Origin: an uncultured beta proteobacterium
Lineage (GTDB): Bacteria > Pseudomonadota > Gammaproteobacteria > Burkholderiales > Burkholderiaceae_B
Direction of reading: 5' to 3'
Length of the DNA: 39,460 nt
Assembly: GCA_903932425.1 (NCBI GenBank)
Contig: CAIZGG010000327.1
Location: 1-39,460, forward strand
Part shown: positions 3,782-28,478 of the stretch, one piece after another
Numbering within the stretch: the stretch's first letter is position 1
Layout of the letters: every line of letters begins with the position of its first letter
Made by a program: the position numbers and the translations under genes
The notes under the pieces: generated by a model
Databases searched by the model: none
The model's input: the letters and a program-made list of their open reading frames with translations, nothing else
Told to the model about the DNA's origin: nothing

Positions 3782-3838
3782 CGCTGCACTCGCGCCTTCA
3801 ATCCGTCGAGTAAGCACCAGTTGCACCACCATCAGCAT

Positions 3839-6814
3839 ATGACTACAAAGCTTGAACTGATCTTCGCGCTCAAGAGCAACATCACGACAGCCGGGCTAAG
3901 AAAAGCACTTTTGTTCTCTCTGGCTGCATTTCTATTGCAGTGCGGCTCTTTTTATGCGGGCCAGGTGAACCCACACGTTGTCAATATTTACGCCTTTCCC
4001 ATCGCATTTTGGTGTGCTCTGCTGTTTTTTGCCGGGCCACAGTACTGGTTCGTTTTACTAGGCGCAAGTTTTTTCGGCCTCGTCTTATTTGGAGCGCAGG
4101 TCAGTCTTGCGGCCACTTACGCCTTCACGCTCACCGCCGGCGTTTTTGTGATCGTTCAAATTGACCAAGCGATCAACAAGCGGCCACTCGCAGTTGACTC
4201 GATGTCTGCGATCTTAAGATTAGCGCTCTGCTCGATCGCCGTCGGGCTGCTGGCAACGTTCCTGTTATTCCTTAGCCACCTTGCCTCTCCCTCCGTGGTA
4301 CCAAAAGTCACGATGGCGACCTGGATCGCCACCTTTGAACGGGCAACATTGCGCTGTTTTCTGGTCTTTCCCACCCTGATTGTGTGGCGCACACTTCCAA
4401 AAGATTGGGTAAGTCTCAATAAGGCTTTAAAACTTGTTTTATTTATCGCGATTTGGAGCAGCCTAGCTTACATGATGTTTGGTATGCAGGCCACACCTCT
4501 CACACAGCCTTTTGCAAGAGGCTATTTGCTTTTCGTACTCCTGCCTTTTGTCGGACTTTATTTAGGTGCTCACGGCGTGACACTCTCGATCACCCTCTTG
4601 TACTTTAGTGCGATGTGGGGCTCGTTTTCATACACAGGAAGCTTTTATCAGTCGAATGACATCGACTTTACCCAAGTACGCTTTTTTATGACGTGCTATG
4701 CGAGTACAGGTTTGACCACAATCGTTGTGATCGAGTGGCTCAGACAACAAAAAGAGCGCTACACCACCACCGAAGAGGTCTTCCGGCAGGTGATTGACGC
4801 AATCCCAATCCCGATTGCCGTGATGACTCAGGATGCCCAACCAGAGCGCTTAGCAGCTGAGACTCGGATGGACTTTGTCAATTTAAGCTTTACTCACCAA
4901 ACGGGTTACACCAGCGAAGAGCTTCCTGATCTGAGCACATGGTGGCGCCTGGCTTACCCAGACGAAGCCTATCGCCGTTCGATGATTGAAGACCGGGCGA
5001 AATTTTTTTCGACCAACCCTTACGCCCCCTCAATCATAGAGTCTTGGGTCACCTGCCGCGATGGTTCAAAAAAATTATTTAGTTGGAATTCTTTCAGTAC
5101 GAAAGGTCGCACTTTCTCGCTCGGTCAGGATTTGACCCAAATCCATCACCAACAAAATAGTTTAAAAATCGCAGCAAGCTTGTATCAGGCGATTGGAGCA
5201 ATGGTCGCTATCACCGACCAAGACAATAAGATTATTGCGGTGAATCCTGCCTTTCTCGCTGAGATTGGCTTGACCGAGCAAGAGTTGCTTGGCCATGGAA
5301 TCACCTCTTTCGTCTCGTTGAGTTCAGAGAGCGACTCGTTTAAGAACATCTGGGAGCAACTGAATCATCACGATCATTTCGAGGGTGAAATCCAAATTCA
5401 CCCTAAACACAGTCAAACCCCTGCCTTACGCCACCTGTCCATCTACACAACCCCAAGCGACGACGCTGACGCTACCCAGCGCGTTTGGCTTTTTTCACAT
5501 TCAAACGATGCAAAAAGGGCGCGCGCACAAACACAGCGACAAGCGCAATATGACCCGCTCACGGGGCTAGCAAACCGAAGGCTGTTGACCAATCGCCTTG
5601 AGTCGGCCATTGATCGTGCTTCAAAAAATCAATCGAAATTTTGTCTTATCTTCATTGATCTTGACGACTTTAAAGATATTAATGACACGCGTGGACACGA
5701 CGTTGGCGATGACGTTCTGATCGCCGTTGCCAACCGACTGCAACGTTTGCAGCGTACCAATGATACGACGGCGCGCCTTGGCGGAGACGAATTTACGCTG
5801 ATCTACAACGACCTTGCCTCTGACAAGCAACTCGAAACCAGGGTCGACTTGCTGCTTAAAGAATTTGAACAGCCGTTCAACATCAAAAATACGGTTTATC
5901 AAATTTCAATCAGCGTGGGCGTGGCCCAATACCCGCGCGATGGTCAAACGAGCAGAGAAATTTTGATGCACGCAGACCAGGCCATGTACGCGGCCAAACG
6001 AGACGGAAAGGGACGCCACAAGGTCTTTGATCCTGCGCTTCAACGGCAAGCCAACGAGAAGCAACAAATCATTTCCGAGATTAGACAAGCGCTCGAGAAA
6101 CAAGAATTTGAACTCTATTTTCAACCCATCTTTGCGCTAGACACACACAAGATTGTTAAGAGTGAAGCCTTGTTGAGGTGGAATTTTCCCGATCAGGCAT
6201 TGCGTATGCCAGCAAGTTTTTTAGAACATGCAGAGGCCTCAGGCTTGATTGTGCCGCTCGGCGACTGGGTGTTTACCCAGGCTGCTCGCGCGTGTCAGCA
6301 ATTTAATCAAACCAAGCCAGGCTTTTCAGTGACGGTCAATGTTTCAGCTAGTCAACTAAGCGCGCGGGAAGACCGCACAAAGGGATGGGTTCAAGAACTT
6401 GAAGATCGTGAACTCGCACCCGAGTTGGTGACCTTAGAAATTACAGAACATGTGATGCTGCATTCTTCTGCCGTTGTGCGCACGCGGATCGATCAGCTTA
6501 AAACGGCTGGATTTCAATTTAGCATTGATGACTTTGGAGTAGGTTATTCATCGCTGGCAGTCTTACAAAACACGCGATTTAATTACCTCAAGATAGATCA
6601 GCACTTTGTGGCTACGCTTGACGACAACCCAAAAAGCCAGGCAGTTGTTCGCGCCATCATTGAGCTTGCACACGGTATGAATATGCAAGCCATTGCAGAA
6701 GGAATCGAGACACAGACGCAGCTAGAGGTGCTACAACAATTGGGCTGTGACTTTGGTCAGGGCTACCACTTGTCGCGCCCCATGACGCAGCAACAACTAA
6801 ACGAACTTCTCTAA
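3839..6814 (+). CDS. Membrane-bound MASE1-like/PAS/PAS/GGDEF/EAL c-di-GMP enzyme
   Basis: The N-terminal 290 residues hold about eight hydrophobic segments resembling a MASE1 sensor. Two PAS-like regions follow (about 310-435 and 440-560), then GGDEF (about 570-730) and EAL (about 745-990). The diguanylate cyclase site GGDEF is intact at 648-652. The product-inhibition I-site RTND sits exactly five residues ahead of it (639-642). The phosphodiesterase domain keeps EALLRW (776-781), NVSASQL, LEITEHVM, DDFGVGYSSL, LKIDQ, an AIAEGIET motif and QGYHLSRPM. Both activities are therefore possible, and one may dominate. I prefer the ATG at 3839; the frame also opens at a TTG at 3821, and neither has a clear ribosome-binding site. 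Next to cellulose genes, it could tune BcsA through c-di-GMP. The motifs are seen; the cellulose link is inferred. Confidence 0.92.
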   Translation: MTTKLELIFALKSNITTAGLRKALLFSLAAFLLQCGSFYAGQVNPHVVNIYAFPIAFWCALLFFAGPQYWFVLLGASFFGLVLFGAQVSLAATYAFTLTAGVFVIVQIDQAINKRPLAVDSMSAILRLALCSIAVGLLATFLLFLSHLASPSVVPKVTMATWIATFERATLRCFLVFPTLIVWRTLPKDWVSLNKALKLVLFIAIWSSLAYMMFGMQATPLTQPFARGYLLFVLLPFVGLYLGAHGVTLSITLLYFSAMWGSFSYTGSFYQSNDIDFTQVRFFMTCYASTGLTTIVVIEWLRQQKERYTTTEEVFRQVIDAIPIPIAVMTQDAQPERLAAETRMDFVNLSFTHQTGYTSEELPDLSTWWRLAYPDEAYRRSMIEDRAKFFSTNPYAPSIIESWVTCRDGSKKLFSWNSFSTKGRTFSLGQDLTQIHHQQNSLKIAASLYQAIGAMVAITDQDNKIIAVNPAFLAEIGLTEQELLGHGITSFVSLSSESDSFKNIWEQLNHHDHFEGEIQIHPKHSQTPALRHLSIYTTPSDDADATQRVWLFSHSNDAKRARAQTQRQAQYDPLTGLANRRLLTNRLESAIDRASKNQSKFCLIFIDLDDFKDINDTRGHDVGDDVLIAVANRLQRLQRTNDTTARLGGDEFTLIYNDLASDKQLETRVDLLLKEFEQPFNIKNTVYQISISVGVAQYPRDGQTSREILMHADQAMYAAKRDGKGRHKVFDPALQRQANEKQQIISEIRQALEKQEFELYFQPIFALDTHKIVKSEALLRWNFPDQALRMPASFLEHAEASGLIVPLGDWVFTQAARACQQFNQTKPGFSVTVNVSASQLSAREDRTKGWVQELEDRELAPELVTLEITEHVMLHSSAVVRTRIDQLKTAGFQFSIDDFGVGYSSLAVLQNTRFNYLKIDQHFVATLDDNPKSQAVVRAIIELAHGMNMQAIAEGIETQTQLEVLQQLGCDFGQGYHLSRPMTQQQLNELL

Positions 6815-6936: not shown

Positions 6937-8145
6937 TCAACGTTCGCGCATGCCTTGCGTTAACGCGTAATAAATGGGTCGCATTAAATAACGCAGCACC
7001 GACTGCCGATCTGTAATGATGTCTGCATCAAGTGTCATGCCGGGTTCAACGGTCATCACGCCGGCCTGCTGCCCAAGATGTGTTTTAGAAATATCAATGA
7101 GCACTTTAAAGTAAGGTGCGCGGCGTTCGTCCATCGTACTGAAGGGCGAAATCATCGTGACCTGTCCGGGTATCGTGCCATAGCGCATAAAGTCGAACGC
7201 ACCAAATTTCAAACGCGCAGTCTGGCCTATTTTTACAAAGCCTATGTCATTGGCGGCAATCTGTACCTCGGCGTGCACCTTGCCGTCTGAAGGAACTAGG
7301 TTCATCACCGTTGCCGCCGGTGGAACCACACCGCCAACCGTACGGAATTTCAGATCTTGCACAGTACCTGCCACAGGCGCAACAATATCCACGCGCTCAA
7401 GTCGATCGAGCAGTTTCAACATCTGACTTTCAACTTGAGCCAACTCGCTGGCTACGCTGTTGAGGTCGTCAAGATTTTTTCTTTCGAATCGCAAGAGCTC
7501 AGACTCTGACAGGTTCAGGTTTTTGTTCGCCTCAAGAACCTGCACCCGCGACACTAATTTTTCTTTTTCAAGATCCGTTCGAATCGTGCGCAACTCTTTG
7601 TAGATGCGAATATCCTCTTCGAGAACGTCACGCTGCTCGCGTGCCATCGTCAAGGTAAGCAACTGCTCTTTAATCAAAATCGAGTAGCTTGAGGGGATTT
7701 TTGTAAAATCTGGAGTCTGGTCACTAATTAAGGCACGCAACCTTTGTGCACTCGCCCAAAGCGACCAGTATCTGGCTTCGAGTGTCTTGTACTCTGAGTT
7801 GGCCTCGGTTGGATTTAAGCGCATCAGCAGTTGCCCTTGCTGAACCACCTGCCCATCAAGCACATCGATGCTTGCGATGCGTCCGCCATCAAGGTGCTGG
7901 ATGACTTTGACAGCCTGAACGGGTACGACGACGCCTTTGGCTGTGCTCACGACATCTAATTGCGCAAAACCGGCCCAAACGATGAAAGCAAATATTGCAG
8001 CGACCACCAGCCAAATAATATGCCGTACCAACCTCGCTGGCGCAGCCTCTTCAAGCAACAACGACTTTGACAAAATCTGATCGGTCGCTTGCCCAATGGC
8101 TAGCGGCGTTGCACTGACATTTTTTTTAATGCCTGAAATATTCAT
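6937..8145 (-). CDS. HlyD-family periplasmic adaptor of a type I secretion system
   Basis: This is the inner-membrane-anchored adaptor joining an ABC exporter to an outer-membrane channel. It has a cytoplasmic N-terminus of about 42 residues and one transmembrane helix (about 43-62). A first lipoyl/biotinyl-like half follows (HLDGGRIASIDVLDGQVV, 84-101), then a long helical hairpin rich in Leu/Glu/Arg (about 110-265), the second lipoyl half (VDIVAPVAGTVQDL) and a C-terminal beta-barrel. This is the HlyD/PrtE/LapC layout, 402 residues. Its ATG overlaps the stop of the ABC exporter gene by four bases (ATGA), indicating translational coupling. It is the last gene of the operon. Family assignment is strong; the exported substrate is unknown. 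Confidence 0.9.
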   Translation of the reverse strand: MNISGIKKNVSATPLAIGQATDQILSKSLLLEEAAPARLVRHIIWLVVAAIFAFIVWAGFAQLDVVSTAKGVVVPVQAVKVIQHLDGGRIASIDVLDGQVVQQGQLLMRLNPTEANSEYKTLEARYWSLWASAQRLRALISDQTPDFTKIPSSYSILIKEQLLTLTMAREQRDVLEEDIRIYKELRTIRTDLEKEKLVSRVQVLEANKNLNLSESELLRFERKNLDDLNSVASELAQVESQMLKLLDRLERVDIVAPVAGTVQDLKFRTVGGVVPPAATVMNLVPSDGKVHAEVQIAANDIGFVKIGQTARLKFGAFDFMRYGTIPGQVTMISPFSTMDERRAPYFKVLIDISKTHLGQQAGVMTVEPGMTLDADIITDRQSVLRYLMRPIYYALTQGMRER

Positions 8146-11100
8146 GACCTCGACCCAGTGCCCACGGTGGGTGGCTTAAGTAAATCGTTGGGCGCACCTG
8201 TTGCACGCAAATAGCCATTTTCAAACACCATTAAGGTATCAGCCAAGCGGATATGCGAGGGCTTATGGCTAACGAAAATAACGGTGATTTTTCCCTTCAC
8301 AGCGGTCAAGAATTCAGCAAACTTTTGGTCAGCCATAGGATCCAGACCTGAAGTGGGTTCATCTAGCAGCAAAATTGACGCACCCGCCAAGTAGGCCCGA
8401 GCCAGTGCGAATTTTCTACGCATACTAATCGACAAATCTTGTTTGTTATCGCCACTTCGATAGTCTAGCTTATTGGGCAGGCGCAACACTTGCTCGAGGC
8501 CCCCCGCCAGCTCTAGCGCGGTAAGAATATCGTCATCCGTTGCGTCAGGCCTGACAAGCCGCATATTTTGAGCGATCGTTGCCCGAAACATATGCGACCG
8601 ATCCTCTGGCATGTAGCCGATTCGACGGCGAATTTCGAAAGGAGTCAACTGACGGATATCGATGCCATCGATCAAAATGGCGCCACTCTGGGGCGGATAC
8701 AAGCCCAGTAACAGCTTGAACAATGTCGATTTGCCTCCGCCATCTGGACCAGTAAGTGCAACAGACTGCCCGTGGCGCAATGAAAAATCAACCCCCACAA
8801 GGGCGGGGTCTGCACTTTGAGCATAGCGAAACGACACCTTTGAAAACTCAACCTTACCGGCCATCAGCCTGGATACAGCATTGGTGGTGTCGAACCGCTC
8901 TCCTTGGATCGCCATTAAACCGTCGATCTGCCGCACCGCAGCCGTAATATTGTTGAAGCGGCGTAAATTCGAAAAGAACATCTGGATGGGCGTCAGGATT
9001 CGCCACATTAACATCGTCGAGGCAACTAACGCGCCCGACCCAATCGACCCCGCGATCACAAGTGGCACTGAAATAGCAATAATCATCAGCGCCGAAAGCA
9101 TCATGAACAAGTGAGACAGTGCGCCAATCCGCGCGGCAGTCTTTTCAGACTGGTACATCAGCATACTCGCCTCAGCCGAAATATCTTTGAAGCGTTTAAA
9201 CCAGATTTTCTCGACGCCACACTCTTTAATTAACCGCATCTTGTGAGCCGACTCGGTCAAAAACTCACTGCGCGCGTTCACTGCAAATCCAACCCTTGCA
9301 CTTTGCCTCGATACCATCGGCTCGTAGATCAAATACAAGAACGCGTAGGCAATAACCGCTGCGACGCACACCAACAACGCCATCGGGTTCACAAGGGCGA
9401 GGACGATCAAAAAGACAAGCGTGACAGGTAGATTAAGGATTGTCGCGGCGAGCGGGCCGCTAAACATATCGCGTATCGCCTCAAAGCCATGCAGCCTGGC
9501 GGTTTGCGCGCCGACTGAAGCACTCTCGGTATAAGCGACAGGCATTTTTAATAGCTGCCCCGTGACCATCGTGCCGAAAAGATAATCAATGCGGCCCGTG
9601 ACTAAACTTAAAATCGCAATCCTGTAGCGCGTGAACAAAAAGGACAAAGCGATGGCTAGCGCAGTCCCGACACCAAGATACAAAAGTGTATCGGTCGCAC
9701 CCGAAGGTATCACTGCGCTGTAGATCGCCATCGAGAATAACGGGCTTGTGACCAGCAACAGCCCGGCGAACAGCTCAGCCACGCCCGATTGTAAAAACTG
9801 CGCAATAAACCGCCTCAAAACGGTCCGGACGGGCTGTCTTTCGTTGACGGCAATATCGACGGGATGGATGAAGTAAGCGTGTCCAACCAGCATCGCATTG
9901 GCATGCAGATAGGGCTCTTGATCGATCGAGGTCGTCACTCGAACCCCGGCTCCCACTCGGCCGAGCACGACAAAACTTGAGCCACCGGCAGGCACAAACA
10001 AACAAGGCAACGCACTTTCTGGAATATCCGTCAACGCACAAGCGACTGTTGTCGCTTTAAACCCTAACCGCGCCAGACTATTCAAAAACTCCGACAAATC
10101 CATGTGCTCTTCGTAGTAAGGCAACACCTCAGCGATTTCGCGCGACGAGTGCCTAGCATTGAGCAGTTTTAACAATAGACTGAAACAATTTGAAAAATCG
10201 TTAGCCCCTTTTAAGAATTGTTGAGTGACGGTTGCCTCAACGCGTTGCCATTGCGTAAGCCCCTTGTCGCTCGAAGCCATCGAGGCCTGCAACTTATCAA
10301 AATATCCGTCAAAGCGTCTGGTCGAGCTTGCCACTGCAGCGTTCACGTTGCCAGAGGAGTCGACTTGCTGAGACTGCCAGTCTTGCAACGTCAACTCAAC
10401 AACCTGGCCGTGCTCAATCGCAAGCAAGCGGTCAGCCAACGTTTGAAAATCTTCGCGCTGCGTCACCATCAAGACCGTCACACGCCCTTTGATCGAACTC
10501 AAAAACTCAAGCAATAAACGATCGCCAAGTAAATCGACTTCAGCATTGGCGTCATCAAACAGCACGAGATTTGGCTGACTCGCAAACGCACGCACAATGG
10601 CTAAACGCTGTCGATAACCCGGCGGTAAGGTTTCGTTCGCCGTATTGCCCACCACAGTATCCCAACCTCGGGGCAAATTCGAAACGAACTCGGTCAAGCC
10701 CAAGGCTTGCGCAATTTGCAAGGCGGCATTGACAAGCGTAGGGTTAAACGCCGTAATGTTTTCTAGCAACGTTCCGTCAAACATTTTTGCCGCGGTCGAC
10801 AGATACACCACTCGGCCGCCCGAACCATTTAACTCTGCCTCTTGCGCGTCTTGCTCATCAATTTTGATGCTTCCTGCCTCGGGCCGCAGCAACCCCGCCA
10901 CACATTGCATCAAGGTCGTTCGGCCGCTTCCCCCTCGACCAACCAGCGCAATAAATTCGCCCGACTTCACTTCGAGCGACATGTTGTTAAACAGCATAAA
11001 CGGGTCAGAAGACCGCACAAAACGGTAGCTCAGGCCCGAGATATGTATCGAAGCGCCCACATGTGTTTCGTCAAACACGGTTGCGCTATCTGCCACCTGA

Positions 11101-12083
11101 GCCTCAGACGACTCAGCAACTACCAGCGCAGGCTTTAACAGCAGGGTGTTTAAATCGATTGCCAAGAGACGATCTTGCCGCAATTTGGCAAATAGCCCTG
11201 TCAGCTTTTGTAAGGGAGAGAGTGATCGCATGGCTAAAAAGGTGCAGGCTGCCAGTTCGCCAACTGACATCGATTGATGGATCACCATATAGGCCCCCAA
11301 ACCAATCACAAACACCGTCACCAAGGGATTTAAGGTCGACCCAAGCGCTGTTGAAAGGTCCGAACGATAAATGAGTTGGGTCAAGGCCTTGGCGCAGGTA
11401 TTTTGCAAGCGTTCATAACGTCTGAGCATCGGGAGCTCCATCGTCATGGACTTGATCGTATGAATATTGTTTAACGTTTCGTGAATAAAGTTACCGCGCC
11501 TTTGATCAGCGGCCGCTTTATTGCCCATCAGCCTCACATTGACTTGACTAAACCACCAACTAAAGCCAGCAAAGCAAAGCTGCGACACCAACAACACCTG
11601 ACCCAGAACTGGGTTAATGATCATAATAATCAGTACGTACAACAAGCTAAAGGGCAAATCTGAGAGTTGCTGATAACTACTGCCTGCGTACAAACTCTTT
11701 AGACCACTAATTGATTTCAACGTGTGAGTGATTTCACCTGTGCCCTTCTGCTCAAAATCCTGAATCGGTTCTCTTAAGAATCGACTCATCGCCTGTGTCA
11801 TTGCAGCGTGCTCAAATTTTGCCGCTACCCAGGCTGTGAGTGAGCTACGTGCCATCATGGTTAAGGCTTCAAGGCATAGCGCGATCGCAATGCCCACGAC
11901 AAAAAGGGTCAGGGTACTTAACGACTGGCTGGGTAGAATGCGATCATAAAGTTGCAACATCAACAATGGGAAGGCCAACCCCAAGAGGTTGATCACGATC
12001 CCGGCTGCGATCACCGTAACGCGAGATTGCTTAAAGGTACTCAGCTGGGAGACCTGATGATCTAGATCCTGAACACTAGCCAC
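8142..12083 (-). CDS. Fused two-half type I secretion ABC exporter (1313 residues) with asymmetric ATP sites
   Basis: One chain carries two complete half-transporters. Half 1 has a membrane domain (about 20-310) and NBD1 (about 345-565). Half 2 begins with a C39-peptidase-like domain (about 615-745) lacking a recognisable catalytic Cys/His pair, as in HlyB/LapB, then a membrane domain (about 755-1040) and NBD2 (about 1075-1300). NBD1 is degenerate: Walker A GRGGSGRTT with Arg388 for Lys, Asp511 for the catalytic Glu, and Gln542 for the H-loop His. NBD2 has GPDGGGKST, LLLDEP with Glu1242, and His1273. The signature facing intact NBD2 is LPPGYRQR (Gly kept); the one facing degenerate NBD1 is LSISMRRK. 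That gives one consensus and one degenerate site, as in heterodimeric ABC exporters. The start is a GTG with AGAGG upstream, overlapping the outer-membrane gene by eight bases. Substrate unknown. Confidence 0.9.
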   Translation of the reverse strand: MASVQDLDHQVSQLSTFKQSRVTVIAAGIVINLLGLAFPLLMLQLYDRILPSQSLSTLTLFVVGIAIALCLEALTMMARSSLTAWVAAKFEHAAMTQAMSRFLREPIQDFEQKGTGEITHTLKSISGLKSLYAGSSYQQLSDLPFSLLYVLIIMIINPVLGQVLLVSQLCFAGFSWWFSQVNVRLMGNKAAADQRRGNFIHETLNNIHTIKSMTMELPMLRRYERLQNTCAKALTQLIYRSDLSTALGSTLNPLVTVFVIGLGAYMVIHQSMSVGELAACTFLAMRSLSPLQKLTGLFAKLRQDRLLAIDLNTLLLKPALVVAESSEAQVADSATVFDETHVGASIHISGLSYRFVRSSDPFMLFNNMSLEVKSGEFIALVGRGGSGRTTLMQCVAGLLRPEAGSIKIDEQDAQEAELNGSGGRVVYLSTAAKMFDGTLLENITAFNPTLVNAALQIAQALGLTEFVSNLPRGWDTVVGNTANETLPPGYRQRLAIVRAFASQPNLVLFDDANAEVDLLGDRLLLEFLSSIKGRVTVLMVTQREDFQTLADRLLAIEHGQVVELTLQDWQSQQVDSSGNVNAAVASSTRRFDGYFDKLQASMASSDKGLTQWQRVEATVTQQFLKGANDFSNCFSLLLKLLNARHSSREIAEVLPYYEEHMDLSEFLNSLARLGFKATTVACALTDIPESALPCLFVPAGGSSFVVLGRVGAGVRVTTSIDQEPYLHANAMLVGHAYFIHPVDIAVNERQPVRTVLRRFIAQFLQSGVAELFAGLLLVTSPLFSMAIYSAVIPSGATDTLLYLGVGTALAIALSFLFTRYRIAILSLVTGRIDYLFGTMVTGQLLKMPVAYTESASVGAQTARLHGFEAIRDMFSGPLAATILNLPVTLVFLIVLALVNPMALLVCVAAVIAYAFLYLIYEPMVSRQSARVGFAVNARSEFLTESAHKMRLIKECGVEKIWFKRFKDISAEASMLMYQSEKTAARIGALSHLFMMLSALMIIAISVPLVIAGSIGSGALVASTMLMWRILTPIQMFFSNLRRFNNITAAVRQIDGLMAIQGERFDTTNAVSRLMAGKVEFSKVSFRYAQSADPALVGVDFSLRHGQSVALTGPDGGGKSTLFKLLLGLYPPQSGAILIDGIDIRQLTPFEIRRRIGYMPEDRSHMFRATIAQNMRLVRPDATDDDILTALELAGGLEQVLRLPNKLDYRSGDNKQDLSISMRRKFALARAYLAGASILLLDEPTSGLDPMADQKFAEFLTAVKGKITVIFVSHKPSHIRLADTLMVFENGYLRATGAPNDLLKPPTVGTGSRS

Positions 12084-13641
12084 GGCTACCCTCTTTCAAG
12101 CATCGATCCTCTTTGTCAGCCACGCCGCCGCCGAGCGATTTGTACAAATCCACCGCGGCCTTTAACTGATCGCGGCGCGCGCTAATAATGGCATCTTCCG
12201 ACGCCATCACGGTCTGCTCAATGGTCAGCAGTTGCACGAAATCAATCGCACCGCGTTCTAACAACTTGCGGGTATTGCTCGCAAGCTGTTGCGCCTGATC
12301 CAGACTGATCGCCAAGGCTTGATGTCTCAACTTGGTCGTTTCGAGCCCATTTAGTGCATCTTCCACATCACGCAGCGCAGCCTGTACCGTGCTGGCATAG
12401 GCCTCAAGCAACTCAAAGTTTCTTGCACGGGTCGCACGAATATCGGCGTCACGTCTGCCGCCATCGAAGATATTTTGCAATAAATTACTCGTGATATTAA
12501 AGAAAAAGCTTTGGGGACTTAAGATTGTCGATAAGTAGTAGCTGCCCATGCCGCTTTGCCCAGACAACGAAAACGCCGGCAACAGGCTCGCGCGCGCGGC
12601 ATATAAGTCTGCCTGTGCCGACAACAGACTTGCTTCGGCGGCCTTGATATCAGGTCGTCGGCATAACAGCTCAGAAGGCAGACCTGCGCTCAAATCCACC
12701 CGTTTAAATGAATCGATCGAAGTCGCTTGTACCTTCAGCGTACCAGGAACGAGCCCTTGCAATTGCGCCAAACGATTGAGTTCACGCACTCGCTGACCGT
12801 TCAATAAAGACAAGTTTGCCTGAGTATTTTTTTCAAGAATACGCTGTTGCGCTAAATCAATCACGGTCGAATCGCCACGACTCACTCTGCGGGCGATCCC
12901 CTCTCTGACTTTGGTAATTGACTCAAGATTTCGGGTGCCTACGGCAAGACGCTCTGTCAGCGAGACCACTGAAAAATATGTACTCACTACGTCGGCAGCA
13001 AGCAATAACGCAACGCTGTCACGCGAGTACTGACTGACAAGCGATTTTTGGTACGCCGACTCAGTGTTAAACCCCAGCTTGCCCCAAAGGTCAACCTCAT
13101 AGTTGACCCTCAGGCCCCCCTGATAAATCTCTTGGGTACGCCATGCTTCAGTGGTCGGGGCGGTTGCAACCCCGTTCCAGGGGCCTTGATTCTGATACCC
13201 AGCCACGCCATCTATCGTTGGGCTTTGCAGGGCACGGACCGCATCGGCTTGCGCGCCAGACTGGGCCACGCGCGCAATCGCCGCCTTGAGGTCGTAGTTG
13301 TTTTTAAACGCGTTTTCGACAAATCCGTCGAGTTCCGCGCTCCCGAAGCTGCGCCACCATTTCTCTGGAACGGTTGGAAGTTTTAAGGCCTCGGCGTCTC
13401 CCGCCTCAGCATAGGACGCAGGCATCCATTTGACATAAGCTGGGCCAGCAGGCGCGTCACCGTCTTTGACGATCGGCTTAGAGCACCCGATGAGCGATAC
13501 AGTCACGCAGGCTCCGACCAGACACCTGAGCACATTGCACATGCCGAACCATTGAAGAATGCGCGTCGCCGCAGGAAATTTTGGTAGGGATGGCACGTGT
13601 TCCAGTTTTTTAGGACTCAGACTACAAGACAGCATCATCAC
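12076..13641 (-). CDS. NodT/TolC-family outer membrane factor lipoprotein
   Basis: This is an outer-membrane channel protein, first gene of the type I secretion operon. After a hydrophobic segment and the lipobox SLIGC (Cys53 from the first start), it has the NodT-family features: PEKWWRSFGSAELDGFVENA, LKAAIARVAQSGAQ, long alpha-helical repeats, a central RRPDIKAAEASLLSAQADLYAARA-type block (RRPDI...A..L..A.A....A), LLPAFSLSG and a C-terminal LLERGAIDFVQLL. The first start (13641) gives an unusually long 52-residue pre-lipobox segment. The in-frame ATG at 13542 would give a normal 20-residue lipoprotein signal and may be the real start; neither has a good ribosome-binding site. NodT proteins usually pair with RND pumps, so a lipoprotein channel with an ABC/HlyD pair is slightly unusual but known. 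Confidence 0.85.
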   Translation of the reverse strand: MMMLSCSLSPKKLEHVPSLPKFPAATRILQWFGMCNVLRCLVGACVTVSLIGCSKPIVKDGDAPAGPAYVKWMPASYAEAGDAEALKLPTVPEKWWRSFGSAELDGFVENAFKNNYDLKAAIARVAQSGAQADAVRALQSPTIDGVAGYQNQGPWNGVATAPTTEAWRTQEIYQGGLRVNYEVDLWGKLGFNTESAYQKSLVSQYSRDSVALLLAADVVSTYFSVVSLTERLAVGTRNLESITKVREGIARRVSRGDSTVIDLAQQRILEKNTQANLSLLNGQRVRELNRLAQLQGLVPGTLKVQATSIDSFKRVDLSAGLPSELLCRRPDIKAAEASLLSAQADLYAARASLLPAFSLSGQSGMGSYYLSTILSPQSFFFNITSNLLQNIFDGGRRDADIRATRARNFELLEAYASTVQAALRDVEDALNGLETTKLRHQALAISLDQAQQLASNTRKLLERGAIDFVQLLTIEQTVMASEDAIISARRDQLKAAVDLYKSLGGGVADKEDRCLKEGSRG

Positions 13642-17156: not shown

Positions 17157-19688
17157 ATGAATACCTTACGCTCGGCGAATTTGATCGGCTGTTTGTGGCT
17201 CTGTATTGGCTCGGTCGCAGTTTTTTTTATCAATGACTACCAGTCATTGGTGTTAGGGACTGTTGCCATCACGGCCATCGTGGGCGTAGGTTTAAATATC
17301 TTGATGGGTTTAGCCGGCCAAACGTCTCTTGGGCATGCCGCGTTTTATTCCATTGGCGCGTACGCAGGTACGCTTCTCACCATCAAATTTGGTGTGCCCT
17401 ACGTTGTGGCGATGGCAGGTTCGGCCTTGATTGCAGGTTTAGCTGGCGCCCTGCTTGCGCTGCCAGCCTTGCGCGCCAAAGGCCCTTACCTTGCCATGAT
17501 CACGATCGCCTTCGGCTATTTTGTTGAGCAAGGTATCGCCGAATGGAAAGACCTGACTGGTGGCTGGAATGGGATTATGAACATTTCACGACCGATGCTT
17601 GCTGGTACAGAGATCAGTGGTTTGCAACTGACCTGGTTTGCCGTATTGCTCAGCGCGGCCTTGATCCCCGCCTATGCATGGTTTGCGCGCAGTCGTTGGG
17701 GCATCATTATGCGAGCCACGCGCGACGCAGAAATTGCGGCAAGTGCTCTGGGTGCCAAACTTTTGGTCATTCGCGTCATTGCCTTTAGCCTGTCGGCAGC
17801 GCTCGCTGGTATCGCAGGATCTCTTTTTGCAAGCATGAACGGTTTTATTAGCCCTGAGTCATTTCCATTTTTTCAGTCACTCATTTTTTTATTGATGCTG
17901 ATGATCGGTGGCGTAGGCTATTCTGCCGGTCCGCTACTTGGAGCACTTGTCGTCATTTTGCTACCCGAGTCGCTCTCCATGCTGGCAGAATACCGTTTGA
18001 TATTTTTTGGCGGCTTACTTCTGGTGGTGCTGCTGATCGCACCCAATGGCATGGCAGGGGCTGCGCTCAAAGCTAGCCAAGCGTTCGCCGCCCGCTTTGC
18101 CAAAAGTGGTGCGATTCTTGCACAAGGTTCTACGGAGCCCACCTCGTTGCAAGCGCTTCTGAACACCCACGCGCGCGCACGCGCCGCCCAGGCCTCACTT
18201 ACACTCAAAGACCTTGGCGTGACTTTTGGCGGAAATCACGCCTTGAAAGAAGTCACCCTCAGCGCCTTGGGCGGACAAGTCACAAGCTTGATCGGCCCCA
18301 ATGGTGCCGGTAAAACAACCTTGATTAATCTGGTAACAGGGTTTTATCAAGCAACGCAGGGATCGGTCAGACTCAATGACCTACCGCTCACCGGTCTGAC
18401 TATGGCCGATATTGGCCGCAACGGATTGAGTCGAACCTATCAAACTTCACAACTTTTTGGTTCGTTGAGCGTGTTAGACAACGTCTATTTTGGGCTACTA
18501 CAAGGTCGTTTGTGGGGCTCAATACCGGTTGCGTCGCGCGACGATTTCTGTGCGCAGCTTTTGCGTGTTGTGGGTTATCAGGGCTCTGTTACACAGACTG
18601 CCGACGCACTTGCGCATGTCGATCGTCGCTTGGTTGAGATTGCACGTGCGCTTGCAGCGCAACCTGCCTTTGTTTTACTCGACGAACCCGCGGCGGGCTT
18701 AAGCGCTGAAGAAAAGATTCAGCTCGCAGTCGTGCTCAAACATATTGCCGGGGCTGGCATCGGGGTCTTGGTCATCGAACACGACATGGCCTTGGTGATG
18801 AGCATTTCAGATCGGATTCACGTACTGGATTCAGGACGACTGATCGCCTCGGGCACACCTGCTGAGATTCAGCAAAGCGCTGTTGTCAGAGCGGCCTACC
18901 TGGGTAGCGGCGAATCAACGTTTTTAAAACAAGCAACGAAGCAGCCTTCTTCTCTTGTTGAGACTAGTGAACCAGCTCGAGCGCAAGATATCCTGGTGAT
19001 TGGCGACATCTCGGCACACTACGGGGCCGCCAATGTGTTGACCGACGTGGGCTTTGCCGTCAGACAGGGTGATACCGTTGCCGTGCTTGGTGCGAACGGC
19101 GCTGGCAAGTCAACCTTGATGCGTGTGCTGTCAGGCCTGCATCAGCAGTTTTCTGGAGCAATCGGCTTTGATGGTCGCGACATCAGTCACCTCGCCGCAC
19201 ATCAGGTCGCACGCCTGGGGCTGCTCATGGTGCCTGAAGGAAGACAAGTGTTTGCAGAGCTCAGCGTCGAAGACAATATTCGCATTGGGGCCTACGCTCG
19301 CGCAGAATTAACTGCTGAAAAATTGCAAGCGATTTATGCAATGTTTCCAAAGCTCGCAAGTCTAAAAACTCGACGCGCTGGCTTGCTATCGGGTGGTGAA
19401 CAACAGATGCTCGCAATCGCACGCGGTCTTGCCGGTGAACCGTTGGTGCTCTTATTAGACGAACCCTCGTTAGGCCTAGCGCCCGCCATTGTTGAAGATT
19501 TATTTTTACGACTGGCAGAGCTCAAAGCACGAGGCTTAACACTATTGCTGGTCGACCAGCGCGCGGACATGGCCCTGGCTTTGTCGGATCGCGCCAATTT
19601 ACTGGCTGCTGGTCGCATGATTTTCAGCGGCACCTCTGAGGCTTTGCAAGAGTCAGGAAAGTTAACGGAAGCTTATCTTGGCGCTTAA
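17157..19688 (+). CDS. Triple-fusion HAAT importer protein: LivM permease + LivG ATPase + LivF ATPase
   Basis: One 843-residue chain joins three normally separate subunits. LivM-like permease, about 1-310: NILMGLAGQTSLGHAAFY, LRAKGPYLAMITIAFG, and the coupling loop RSRWGIIMRATRDAEIAA. LivG-like ATPase, about 345-588: Walker A GPNGAGKTT (380-388), Walker B LLDEP, His542. LivF-like ATPase, about 612-843: Walker A GANGAGKST (645-653), LLSGGEQQ, LLLDEPSLGLAP, with Gln801 at the H-loop, as is usual in LivF. In the LivG part the ABC signature, usually LSYGQ-like, reads LAHVDRR (485-491), though the following LVEIARAL is kept. Linkers are short, about 35 and 25 residues. With livK and livH this makes a full importer. 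LivM-LivG fusions are known; a three-way fusion is less usual. Confidence 0.92.
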   Translation: MNTLRSANLIGCLWLCIGSVAVFFINDYQSLVLGTVAITAIVGVGLNILMGLAGQTSLGHAAFYSIGAYAGTLLTIKFGVPYVVAMAGSALIAGLAGALLALPALRAKGPYLAMITIAFGYFVEQGIAEWKDLTGGWNGIMNISRPMLAGTEISGLQLTWFAVLLSAALIPAYAWFARSRWGIIMRATRDAEIAASALGAKLLVIRVIAFSLSAALAGIAGSLFASMNGFISPESFPFFQSLIFLLMLMIGGVGYSAGPLLGALVVILLPESLSMLAEYRLIFFGGLLLVVLLIAPNGMAGAALKASQAFAARFAKSGAILAQGSTEPTSLQALLNTHARARAAQASLTLKDLGVTFGGNHALKEVTLSALGGQVTSLIGPNGAGKTTLINLVTGFYQATQGSVRLNDLPLTGLTMADIGRNGLSRTYQTSQLFGSLSVLDNVYFGLLQGRLWGSIPVASRDDFCAQLLRVVGYQGSVTQTADALAHVDRRLVEIARALAAQPAFVLLDEPAAGLSAEEKIQLAVVLKHIAGAGIGVLVIEHDMALVMSISDRIHVLDSGRLIASGTPAEIQQSAVVRAAYLGSGESTFLKQATKQPSSLVETSEPARAQDILVIGDISAHYGAANVLTDVGFAVRQGDTVAVLGANGAGKSTLMRVLSGLHQQFSGAIGFDGRDISHLAAHQVARLGLLMVPEGRQVFAELSVEDNIRIGAYARAELTAEKLQAIYAMFPKLASLKTRRAGLLSGGEQQMLAIARGLAGEPLVLLLDEPSLGLAPAIVEDLFLRLAELKARGLTLLLVDQRADMALALSDRANLLAAGRMIFSGTSEALQESGKLTEAYLGA

Positions 19689-23251: not shown

Positions 23252-23716
23252 TTATAAAAATCTGTCGAGAATACGGCGACTATTCTTATCAAGTGCTTGC
23301 ATGTCAGGCAAGATAAACCTCAAACCATGACTGTCAGTAATGATCAGCGTTGAGCCGCTTAAACGTCGGATATCTTCTTCGCCCTTGAGGATCAACTTGG
23401 TTGCACCCCGGTCAGTGACGACGTCCCAAGTACTTGGCGTTGACAGCGTCGAGACGCTCACGATCCGTTGAATTGTCGGCATCATCTCGCGCAATGCAAT
23501 CTCTTCATTCACTAAAGCACGCATCTCTTCGGGCAGTGTGCTCAAGTCATCCACCCAGGCAACCTCTTTACCCTCAAGACTCATAAACGCGACAAACTCC
23601 CCAGGTGCTTGCAGCGGAAATGCACGCACAGGCACCACGCCTTCGTGCGTGCGCCCGTCTTGCAAGGTCAGCAGCAGGCGACCAGCTTGATTGCGCGACA
23701 ACAAGAAATCAGACAT
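23252..23716 (-). CDS. DUF1854 protein associated with cyanophycin metabolism
   Basis: The 154-residue cytoplasmic protein has the DUF1854 pattern: SRNQAGRLLLTL, GVVPVRAFPLQAPGEFVAF, VAWVDDLSTLP, a conserved REMMPTIQRI helix, a WDVVTDRG-type strand and ITDSHGLRFILPD. The frame continues upstream, but I place the start at the ATG at 23716, preceded by AAGAGG at the right distance and overlapping the ABC transporter stop by eight bases, so the two are translationally coupled. The pair sits divergent from the cyanophycin synthetase genes, an arrangement I recall as typical of Burkholderiales. Molecular function is not known. It might be a cytoplasmic partner of the ABC protein. Confidence 0.85.
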   Translation of the reverse strand: MSDFLLSRNQAGRLLLTLQDGRTHEGVVPVRAFPLQAPGEFVAFMSLEGKEVAWVDDLSTLPEEMRALVNEEIALREMMPTIQRIVSVSTLSTPSTWDVVTDRGATKLILKGEEDIRRLSGSTLIITDSHGLRFILPDMQALDKNSRRILDRFL

Positions 23717-26069
23717 CGGTTGCCTCTTGTCGGGTGTCAGGCGTGGCAACTGGCGGAGAAACAGCTTTGACTTCACCTATGACCTTAGTTGCGGCCACCT
23801 CTGCCGGGCTCGGGGCCACTTGATCCACCCCAGTCAGACGCGACTGAGCCTGATACAAGTCATGGTAAGCGCCGCCGCGGGCAAGCAAGTCGTCATGATT
23901 ACCAATCTCGACGATCTCGCCACGATCGAGTACAACCAACCGATCGGCCTTACGCAGGGTACTCAAGCGATGCGCAATCGCAATCGTGGTACGGCCTTGG
24001 ATCAGATTATCAAGCGCCTCTTGAATCTCCATCTCTGTGGTGGTGTCAACCGATGAAGTCGCCTCATCCAGAATCAGAATACGGGGATCAATCAGCAGGG
24101 CGCGAGCGATTGAAATACGCTGTCGCTCGCCACCCGACAAGGCTTGTCCGCGTTCACCCACAAGCGAATCGTACCCCTGCGGCAAACGCAAAATAAATTC
24201 ATGCGCGCGCGCTGCACGCGCAGCCGCCACAATCTCTGAGCGCGTGGCTTCAGGTTTTCCGTAGGCAATGTTTTCAGCAATTGTTCCGAAAAACAAGAAC
24301 GGTTCTTGCAACACCAAACCAATATTGCGCCTGAACGAGGCCAGCGAATACGAGCGGATATCAACGCCATCGACCCGAATCCCACCTTCGGTCACATCAT
24401 AAAAACGACAAATCATGTTGACCAGCGAACTCTTGCCCGAACCGCTGTGACCGACAAGCCCAATCATTTCGCCCGCACCAATACTTAAATTGACGTTACG
24501 CAATACGGTTCGGCTGCCGTAGCGAAAGCCAACGTTGCGCAACTCAATGCGGCCTTCAACACGTTCGAGTGGCACCGGGCGCTGCGCATCAGGTACGCTC
24601 GAAACGTGATCCAAAATATCAAAAATCCGCTTCGCACCGGCCGCCGCCTGCTGAGTATGTGACACGATACGGCTCATCGAATCAAGGCGAGTGTAAAACC
24701 GGCCAATGTAAGCCAAAAAGGCCGCCAACACCCCCACCGTGATCGTGCTGCTTGCAACCTGTGAGATGCCGAAGATCCAGACCACCAACAAACCAATTTC
24801 AGTCAAGAACGTCACGGTCGGCGCAAAGAGCGCCCACACTTTGTTGATGCGATCGTTCACCGCAAGGTAACGGTCGTTGGCTTCACGAAACCGAGCGACT
24901 TCGCGATGCTCTTGCGCAAACGCCTTCACCACCCGAATACCCGGAATCGTGTCGGCCAGTACGTTGGTGAGTTCGCTCCAGGAGCGATCAACTTTTTCAA
25001 AGCCAAAACGCAACCGATGACGCACCATGTGAATCATCCACACGATGACCGGCAGTGGGATTAATGTGGTGAGTGCCAACCACGGATCAATTGAGATCAA
25101 GATACACGCCGTCATCATGATCATCAACACGTCGTTGGCAAAATCAAGTAAGTGCAACGAGAGAAACAGATTGATTCGATCGGTTTCACTGCCAATACGC
25201 GCCATGAGATCGCCGGTACGCTTGCCGCCAAAGTATTGCAACGACAGAGTTTGCAGATGCGTAAACGTTGCAGTGCGCAGATCAGCACCGATTCGCTCGC
25301 TGACCCAGGCGAGCAGATAGGTACGCGCCCAACCAAGCAGCCAAGCCAGCAAGCCAGCGACCACCAAACCCGTCAGGTAAAGCGCTACCAAGTCATAGTT
25401 GATCGGCTTACCATTTTGAAATGGAATCAAAATCTGATCCATTAAGGGCATAGTCAGATACGGTGGCACCAGCGTTGCCGCAGTCGAGAGCAGGGTCAGG
25501 ATGAAGCCGACAATCAGAGGCAGCTTGTACGGTTGAGCAAAACGCGCCAAACGCAACAGCGCCCAGGTATCGCTTGGCCCCGTCTGATCACCGTCACAGA
25601 CGGCACACTCGTCTTGGTCGAGTGCGTAAGGCGTGCCACAGGTTGGGCACGCGGCGGCGTTGGCCTCGGGTGCGTGGAGGGGATCCGCCAGCTTTTGTTG
25701 AAGCTGAGCGAACAGTTCGCTCAGGCGACCGACAGCGGGTGCCATGCCCAGCGTGTGGCGCCAGACACCCAACCGATTTGATCCTTCAAAAAGCTCGATG
25801 GTTCCAACCCCTGCATGGTCCCGATGCTGCAAGGACTGTACAGAGGTGATCGGGAACACAGCCCAGCTATGGGCCTTGGATTCGCGCGACACCAACCGAC
25901 TAGGCGTCAACAATAAAATACCGCTCGAAAAGAACAGATTGGAATCGAGGTCGGGCTCTAGCCAAGCTAAAACCCTTTCGCCGGGTTCTAGCAGAGACTT
26001 GATCTCAACGGCCCAGGCCGTCGGCAGCGTTGACTCAAACGCGGTTTCGGCGATTGAAAGGGCTGTCAT
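23709..26069 (-). CDS. Cyanophycin-associated ABC exporter with PH-like and zinc-ribbon N-terminus
   Basis: The 786-residue half-transporter has an unusual soluble N-terminus. Residues 1-125 look like a small bacterial PH-like beta-domain (GERVLAWLEPD, SSGILLLTPSRLV). Then comes a zinc ribbon with Cys141, Cys144, Cys155 and Cys158. The ABC exporter membrane domain spans about 180-480. The nucleotide domain is fully canonical: GHSGSGKSS (540-548), ALSGGERQR (643-651), ILILDEATS with Glu669, and His700. It should work as a homodimer. Cyanophycin is an intracellular granule, so what the transporter moves is unclear; Arg/Asp dipeptides or granule-linked cargo are guesses. It is divergent from cphA' across 225 bases and coupled to DUF1854. 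Confidence 0.9.
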   Translation of the reverse strand: MTALSIAETAFESTLPTAWAVEIKSLLEPGERVLAWLEPDLDSNLFFSSGILLLTPSRLVSRESKAHSWAVFPITSVQSLQHRDHAGVGTIELFEGSNRLGVWRHTLGMAPAVGRLSELFAQLQQKLADPLHAPEANAAACPTCGTPYALDQDECAVCDGDQTGPSDTWALLRLARFAQPYKLPLIVGFILTLLSTAATLVPPYLTMPLMDQILIPFQNGKPINYDLVALYLTGLVVAGLLAWLLGWARTYLLAWVSERIGADLRTATFTHLQTLSLQYFGGKRTGDLMARIGSETDRINLFLSLHLLDFANDVLMIMMTACILISIDPWLALTTLIPLPVIVWMIHMVRHRLRFGFEKVDRSWSELTNVLADTIPGIRVVKAFAQEHREVARFREANDRYLAVNDRINKVWALFAPTVTFLTEIGLLVVWIFGISQVASSTITVGVLAAFLAYIGRFYTRLDSMSRIVSHTQQAAAGAKRIFDILDHVSSVPDAQRPVPLERVEGRIELRNVGFRYGSRTVLRNVNLSIGAGEMIGLVGHSGSGKSSLVNMICRFYDVTEGGIRVDGVDIRSYSLASFRRNIGLVLQEPFLFFGTIAENIAYGKPEATRSEIVAAARAARAHEFILRLPQGYDSLVGERGQALSGGERQRISIARALLIDPRILILDEATSSVDTTTEMEIQEALDNLIQGRTTIAIAHRLSTLRKADRLVVLDRGEIVEIGNHDDLLARGGAYHDLYQAQSRLTGVDQVAPSPAEVAATKVIGEVKAVSPPVATPDTRQEATDV

Positions 26070-26245
26070 CTAGGCGACACGCGTTGCCCATCAGTCGGTA
26101 CGAACAACTGCAGCGGGAAGCGCTTCATTAGGGGGCCAACAAAGTTCGATTGAATTTCGATTGAAGTGAATCCCTGAAGTATAACGACCTACGCCCGCCG
26201 AAACTACTCTTAGCCTCTTAAGTTGCTCAGGTTTCGCGATTTTGC

Positions 26246-26254
26246 TGCGATAAT
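26246..26254 (+). promoter_or_regulatory. Extended -10 promoter element for the cyanophycin synthetase genes
   Basis: TGCGATAAT fits an extended -10 (TGn plus GATAAT). Transcription would begin near 26261, leaving a leader of about 34 bases before the ATG at 26295, which supports that start over the TTG at 26223 and the ATG at 26253. No convincing -35 is visible, as is common for extended -10 promoters. Confidence 0.35.
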
Positions 26255-26294
26255 GACGGATTCAAGGCATTGTTGCATCGCAACAAATAACGCA

Positions 26295-28463: not shown

Positions 28464-28478
28464 TCACAGGAAATTGTT

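Follow-up and report, generated by a model that had tools for sequence, protein, structure and literature searches.

The DNA examined here (the window) comprises the 39,460 nucleotides of contig CAIZGG010000327.1, part of the GenBank assembly GCA_903932425.1 of an uncultured beta proteobacterium in the Burkholderiaceae_B. On its minus strand, at 8142..12083, lies a gene for a type I secretion exporter of the ATP-binding cassette (ABC) kind, and gene structure and trees show that two half-transporters are joined here in one chain. The open reading frame (ORF) starts with GTG at position 12083 and encodes 1313 amino acids; the plus-strand frame over the same positions is riddled with stops. Pfam places two ABC_tran and two ABC_membrane stretches in the product. 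An earlier note, made from the sequence alone, had proposed two halves fused in a single 1313-residue chain, and the one open frame with its two Pfam halves bears this out. The exporter is laid out as follows (TMD, transmembrane domain; NBD, nucleotide-binding domain):

8142..12083, minus strand: fused type I secretion ABC exporter, 1313 amino acids, GTG start (ORF and family models)
10392..12053, minus strand: half 1 (TMD1-NBD1), LssB-type with no C39-like domain, about residues 11-564 (TIGR03375 profile positions 142-680)
10911..10940, minus strand: Walker A1, residues 382-391, GRGGSGR388TT, with Arg388 for Lys (translation, alignment)
10614..10628, minus strand: signature 1, LPPGY, residues 486-490, fourth-position Gly kept (translation, alignment)
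10551..10556, minus strand: Walker B1, Asp510-Asp511 (LFDD511), Asp for Glu (translation, alignment)
10458..10460, minus strand: H-loop 1, Gln542 for His (translation, alignment)
10239..10388, minus strand: linker, residues 566-615, free of stops (translation and homologue ORFs)
9804..10238, minus strand: C39-like domain, about residues 616-760 (TIGR03375 match that begins at profile position 3; alignment to family exporters and one single LssB exporter)
8175..9803, minus strand: half 2, TMD2-NBD2, about residues 761-1303, with K1118, E1242, H1273 and signature 2, LSISM, at 1217-1221

The whole protein scores 722 bits with the NCBIfam model for LssB (TIGR03375, cut-off 693), a value that is the sum of two stretches. 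Taken separately, half 1 reaches 316 and half 2 415 bits, both under the cut-off, and TIGR03375 is the best model for each; the HlyB model gives 287 bits for half 2 and does not list half 1 at E<=1e-80. By these profile scores both halves are LssB/LapB-type rather than HlyB-type. The alignment to TIGR03375 begins at profile position 3 in half 2 and at 142 in half 1; hence the C39-like N-terminal part belongs to half 2 only, as the earlier note had held. Pfam Peptidase_C39 has no match in the exporter up to E=1, and the catalytic motif was judged from the alignment to related exporters and the usual C39 placement of its Cys and His. Cys633 is invariant across the first seven full-length homologues, but a Cys stands at the equivalent place in four of five single exporters as well and is thus no evidence of protease activity.

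The two halves also differ in their ATP-site residues. Aligned with the solved HlyB (7sgr), half 1 has R388, D511, Q542 and LPPGY opposite Lys, Glu, His and LSGGQ; NBD2 reads GPDGGGK1118ST in Walker A2, LLDE1242 in Walker B2, H1273 in the H-loop and LSISM in its signature. Translation and alignment thus agree with the note on the three replacements in NBD1 and the canonical residues in NBD2. Across an ABC sandwich, each Walker A pairs with the signature of the opposite NBD. It follows that the near-canonical site would combine the NBD2 Walker A with LPPGY, which keeps the Gly at its fourth position (Gly4), and the degenerate site the NBD1 Walker A with LSISM, so the note was also right that only the signature paired with NBD2 retains its Gly. 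With Lys, Glu and His in one ATP site and none of them in the other, the sequence has the asymmetric pattern of a degenerate-site transporter.

Could the join be an artefact? A sequencing or assembly error fusing two genes would fit a draft genome in 508 contigs, and unfused pairs of the two halves do exist. No missed stop was found at residues 565-615, where the earlier note had asked for a check, and 49 non-redundant full-length ORFs, counting that of the window, read straight through the join. Since the other 48 share it, among them three Azospirillum plasmid records annotated as a single coding sequence (1354-1375 amino acids, about 32% identity), this explanation is ruled out, and we give it next to no weight. 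A set of 41 genomes (the window's own, 24 of its genus and 16 of its order) holds six other congeners with one frame spanning both halves and four more with close matches cut by contig ends. A scan of genome contigs gave 37 loci, of which 21 hold a whole fused frame and five more a frame that spans the join but is cut by a contig end; the remainder are shorter pieces, two unfused pairs (draft genomes of Sphingomonas and Acetobacteraceae) and two distant exporters. Named hosts of the fused exporter are Polynucleobacter, Limnohabitans, Sheuella and Zwartia; Azospirillum lipoferum 4B adds a fourth match in Azospirillum. The Polynucleobacter and Limnohabitans proteins (L026, L027, L030, L032, L034, L039) bear an N-terminal extension of about 110-230 residues before TMD1, with hydrophobic stretches in the three that were read (L026, L027, L039); the window protein lacks it.

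Wider samples, drawn evenly rather than at random and with some families heavily represented, show how common this arrangement is. At E<=1e-125, 8 of 399 genomes of the order match, namely the window's own, six fused (1287-1405 amino acids) and one unfused; at E<=1e-115, 53 of 398 genomes of the phylum do so, and 19 besides the window's own have a frame of 1306-1484 amino acids. In viral contigs, 71 stretches fitted the pattern and none was confirmed. The earlier note had suggested a distinct exporter class. A lineage of its own is what the trees described below give; an exceptional one it is not, as the fused form occurs in 19 of 397 phylum and 6 of 398 order genomes besides the window's.

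For the survey of motifs, the ORFs of all fetched loci were classified by hidden Markov models of each half. This yielded 54 fused ORFs besides the window's, from which five cut by contig ends were dropped, and 29 unfused pairs; four lone first and six lone second halves were set aside, and L174 and L175 contain both halves but failed the 600-base pairing rule. Clustering at 95% identity left 49 fused proteins, window included, and 28 unfused pairs. In the fused proteins, NBD2 is nearly uniform (Lys in Walker A2 and Glu in Walker B2 of all 49, His in H-loop 2 of 47), and NBD1 is split (Lys in 25 and Arg in 24 at Walker A1, Glu in 26 and Asp in 23 at Walker B1, His in 3 of 49 at H-loop 1). Signature 1 always keeps Gly4, its second-position Ser being replaced by Pro in 47 and by Ala in two; signature 2 keeps Gly4 in 23 and has Ser in 24 and Thr in two. 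Among the unfused pairs, NBD1 has Lys in 25, Glu in 21 and His in 13, and 22 have all three residues in NBD2. In the clade of the window (n=24), NBD1 retains none of the three residues in 23 members and one in the other (L043, Glu). Arg at 388 and an [LM]PPG signature are found in all 24, although identity to the window protein drops to about 41%. Full degeneration of NBD1 hence appears, from these alignments, to be a mark of the window's clade and not of the fused family at large.

These counts bear on an ordinary fusion that fixes stoichiometry, in which both sites would turn over ATP and the NBD1 changes would be drift under relaxed constraint. In favour of such a course, Walker A1 Lys is kept in 25 and Walker B1 Glu in 26 of the 49, so that fusion does not imply a dead site, and NBD1 is less conserved than NBD2. 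Yet in the window's clade R388 (24/24) and D511 (23/24) are conserved replacements rather than scatter, the H-loop His is gone from 46 of the 49 fused proteins, and of the 24 proteins without Walker A1 Lys, which make up the window's clade, 22 are also without Gly4 in signature 2. As these changes are shared by descent, they represent few independent events. We consider drift of this kind unlikely and favour one hydrolysing site, which nevertheless has evidence to its debit. Signature 1 is itself odd, with Pro for Ser, so that even the better site is non-canonical. Moreover, the 25 fused proteins outside the clade keep Lys and Glu in NBD1 (22 of them without the H-loop His), and L165, L166 and L168 keep all three residues there. 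The earlier note would have given up its claim had homologues of the same length been common and symmetric in their ATP sites. Fairly common they are, but symmetric they mostly are not, Lys, Glu and His in both NBDs being found in only 3 of 49.

On a tree of 73 half-proteins, all 20 first halves, fused or not, form one clade (support 100), and all 20 second halves form another together with one orphan second half (L093; support 100), with 32 single exporters outside both. This tree was made by a quick method with the Shimodaira–Hasegawa-like approximate likelihood ratio test for support; it has several long branches and was drawn with a midpoint root. On a concatenated tree of 72 entries, from which five long-branch pairs were omitted, the fused state changes once (support 70), Walker A1 Lys is lost once and the H-loop 1 His six times. 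A single fusion event would be the simplest reading of this tree, though one not firmly shown. A test of whether fusion and H-loop loss go together yielded one independent pair, too few for a conclusion. Compared with an 83% relative (L021), the window's gene shows a proportion of nonsynonymous differences (pN) of 0.098 and of synonymous differences (pS) of 0.759 (pN 0.121 in NBD1, 0.053 in NBD2); pS is saturated, so their ratio is left unquoted. The gene is under strong purifying selection. In pairwise comparisons, NBD2 comes out as the more conserved of the two domains in all 276 within the window's clade, in 288 of 300 among the other fused proteins and in 369 of 378 among the unfused.

Unfused relatives of the two halves are neighbouring genes. 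In a sample of 369 genomes of the class, eight besides the window's own match the half-1 profile (A2, built mostly from fused rows) at 499 bits or more, and in each of the eight a frame of 535-711 amino acids is succeeded immediately by another ABC frame, of 713-791. Below these, the scores resume at 391 bits, and most of the frames there have 700-800 amino acids and, where read, fall with single exporters on the tree. Half order is the same in unfused pairs and fused ORFs. In 12 pairs with starts read, the genes overlap by four bases in nine and by 14 bases in one, and lie 10 bases apart in two. One unfused pair, on the Phaeobacter piscinae plasmid pP36_f (L063:8235-12025), has lost Walker A in both NBDs (SDAIWQTQA, GRDTASRAA) and has the Walker B Asp replaced in both; it is thus an exporter pair without an intact ATP site. 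The L186 and L187 pairs also lack some NBD2 residues.

The exporter gene is flanked by its presumable partners, and a possible regulator follows:

12076..13641, minus strand: outer-membrane NodT/TolC-type protein, first gene of the operon, 8-base overlap with the exporter gene; homologue in 34 of 86 loci
6937..8145, minus strand: HlyD-type periplasmic adaptor, 4-base overlap with the exporter stop; homologue in 76 of 86 loci
3821..6814, plus strand: MASE1-PAS-GGDEF-EAL enzyme of cyclic di-GMP (c-di-GMP) turnover, convergent neighbour, possible regulator

Together, the outer-membrane gene, the exporter gene and the HlyD gene make up a complete type I secretion operon. The MASE1-PAS-GGDEF-EAL gene adjoins it in the window, as it does in two close relatives (81% and 75% identity), and Polynucleobacter has a related gene about 5 kb upstream. 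Of 86 loci, 23 contain a match to it, in some cases to its GGDEF or EAL domain only, and control of the operon by c-di-GMP is a guess. A LapD/LapG-like circuit finds no support, as a LapG-type protease (PF06035) has no match in the window's own genome (84% complete). The neighbouring 2-oxoglutarate-dependent oxygenase gene has no homologue in any of the 86 loci and is therefore taken as unrelated. Elsewhere in the window, 17157-19688 encodes a single protein of 843 amino acids that unites a branched-chain amino-acid permease domain with two ABC ATPase domains; at 23252-26069 and 26223-31052, a half-size ABC exporter and a DUF1854 gene stand beside two tandem cyanophycin-synthetase-like genes.

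What passes through the pump is most likely a giant cadherin-repeat adhesin of the repeats-in-toxin (RTX) kind. In Limnohabitans the operon follows a 2561-residue piece with 18 cadherin-like and four RTX stretches, and in Zwartia (L037) a cadherin-like gene begins about 4 kb downstream and runs off the contig. In Polynucleobacter a repeat-rich gene, also cut, begins about 7 kb downstream (the L026 piece has no Pfam match), and in Azospirillum oryzae a gene for 5461 residues with Ig-like repeats diverges from the exporter. The genes that follow HlyD in the Polynucleobacter locus (L026:15210-23406) encode a LuxR-type (GerE) protein, an unassigned 309-residue protein, a TPR protein with a weak beta-barrel match and a FecR-domain protein before the repeat-rich gene, which the locus end cuts; the middle genes may belong to adhesin handling. 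Across the genus, of the 11 genomes that have the exporter, complete or truncated, 9 match Cadherin_4 (E<=0.001), against 1 of the 14 that lack it (Fisher p=0.00024); with only matches above the Pfam cut-off counted, the figures are 8 of 11 and 1 of 14 (p=0.0021). As the genomes are related, these p values are optimistic. In a relative, G007, whose exporter pieces are 92-93% identical, a 5'-cut protein of 1375 residues has eight cadherin stretches, an RTX repeat and a type I secretion C-terminal domain, and its gene adjoins an EAL gene. Relatives of this cargo candidate occur in G024 and G013; among the 11 exporter genomes, G007 alone matches the type I secretion target model at E<=0.01.

A cargo of another kind, such as a peptide or a smaller RTX enzyme, would agree with the window itself, since no candidate lies beside its operon and its own genome (84% complete, 508 contigs) has no RTX repeat, cadherin repeat, type I secretion target domain or relative of the G007 candidate. 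A giant repeat neighbour, by the crude rule of at least 800 amino acids of which at least 60% are G, T, V, D, N, S or A, was found in just 17 of 76 loci. The adhesin thus has counter-evidence to face: the stretch fetched holds no giant repeat gene in 59 of the 76 loci, the evidence that ties this cargo to the exporter is correlative and comes from genomes that are related, and two congeners, the window's own genome and G001, have the exporter and no Cadherin_4 match. Conversely, G018 is the sole one of the 14 congeners without the exporter to have cadherin-repeat matches (14, in a frame of 2634 amino acids; G018:C183). This genome carries a single LssB-type exporter (L020), sister on the tree to L016 (692 bits with TIGR03375). 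Still, many of the 76 loci are short and many stop at contig ends, the cadherin- or Ig-like giant genes stand beside the exporter or a few kb away in four genera, and the exporter and cadherins co-occur in the genus. We hence regard another cargo as improbable and retain the adhesin.

Taken together, we think it probable, judging from sequence comparisons, that the window encodes an asymmetric pseudo-heterodimer motor with one hydrolysing site, one C39-like docking domain and a giant cadherin RTX adhesin as cargo. Two ABC half-transporters, elsewhere the products of neighbouring LssB/LapB-related genes, would act in one chain as the inner-membrane motor of type I secretion. Hydrolysis would take place between Walker A, Walker B and H-loop of NBD2 and the LPPG signature of NBD1. 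The site formed by R388, D511 and Q542 of NBD1 with signature 2 might bind ATP without turnover and thereby hold the sandwich together, and each cycle would cost about one ATP. Cargo would dock solely on the C39-like domain that half 2 carries, and with HlyD and the NodT/TolC-type protein the exporter would release the giant cadherin-repeat RTX adhesin, perhaps under c-di-GMP control. A broader proposal, for and against which we see equal chances, is an obligate-heterodimer class with two LssB-related halves and a single C39-like docking domain, which occurs in Alphaproteobacteria, in Betaproteobacteria and in further orders of the window's class. After one fusion its first ATP site would have been silenced progressively, and the window's clade would be where this course ends, its exporters each having a single working site and serving giant cadherin adhesins exclusively.

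Type I secretion cores usually consist of two copies of one half-size ABC protein, and the need for a second ATP site and a second C39-like domain is therefore hard to assess. In the window's exporter the two halves differ and their ratio is fixed at 1:1, and there is a single C39-like domain and a single near-canonical ATP site. Relatives that are unfused or less degenerate offer a comparison, and the number of ATP sites and docking domains needed becomes directly testable. A search of the open-licence literature, with most subscription papers outside it, found no description of a fused or tandem LssB-type exporter. The fused exporter is thus apparently an undescribed, fairly widespread branch of a known pump family.

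Among known systems, TM287/288, TAP and CFTR have one consensus and one degenerate ATP site, and the window protein has the same pattern in its sequence. TmrAB, too, is asymmetric in its ATP sites according to PMC8277102. None of these four belongs to type I secretion, and in the window protein even the better site has a Pro in the signature. PMC6959600 describes a dimerised ABC protein in the type I secretion core and an NHLP-type bacteriocin locus where two ABC genes are present and one of the products has a C39 peptidase motif. That pair resembles the window's two halves in these respects, but its proteins (NHLM_micro_ABC1 and ABC2) are of different families, the window protein scoring 416 and 369 bits against cut-offs of 853 and 709.

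The earlier note named RtxB/RtxE of Vibrio cholerae as the closest precedent. RtxB and RtxE are described as two ABC proteins that are both required for export of the MARTX toxin and were suggested to form a heterodimer (PMC3034196, PMC4316617), and PMC9558359 names RtxB, RtxD and RtxE as the components of a type I secretion system. Two different ATPases thus serve one RTX exporter there (PMC3034196), which would be the argument for taking the window's exporter as a fused member of such a four-component system. However, both its halves are LssB-type and RtxB is described as an analogue of HlyB (PMC3034196). Also, rtxB and rtxE are separate genes that flank the adaptor gene (PMC4316617), whereas the window has one gene and its unfused relatives have their ABC genes side by side before HlyD. 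In this comparison, made by description only, the precedent loses ground, and we consider membership in the RtxB/RtxE system very unlikely.

With LssB/LapB-type exporters the window protein shares the best model for both halves, the C39-like domain (in half 2), the operon with HlyD and outer-membrane genes and the suggested adhesin cargo. Known LssB/LapB-type exporters are single half-size proteins. The window protein instead has two unequal halves in one chain, one of them without a C39-like domain; both its signatures are changed, whereas LSGGQ is found in all five single exporters read. Nearer than RtxB/RtxE are the unfused LssB-type pairs (for example L094, L096, L099, L170 and L184), which have the same clades, half order, C39-like layout, changed signatures and HlyD in the locus, and differ in being two genes and in keeping Walker A1 Lys in 25 of 28 and the H-loop His in 13 of 28. 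On the evidence of models and trees, the class is hence broader and differently rooted than the earlier note held: a branch of two-half exporters akin to the LssB/LapB type, with the halves fused in a sizeable part of it.

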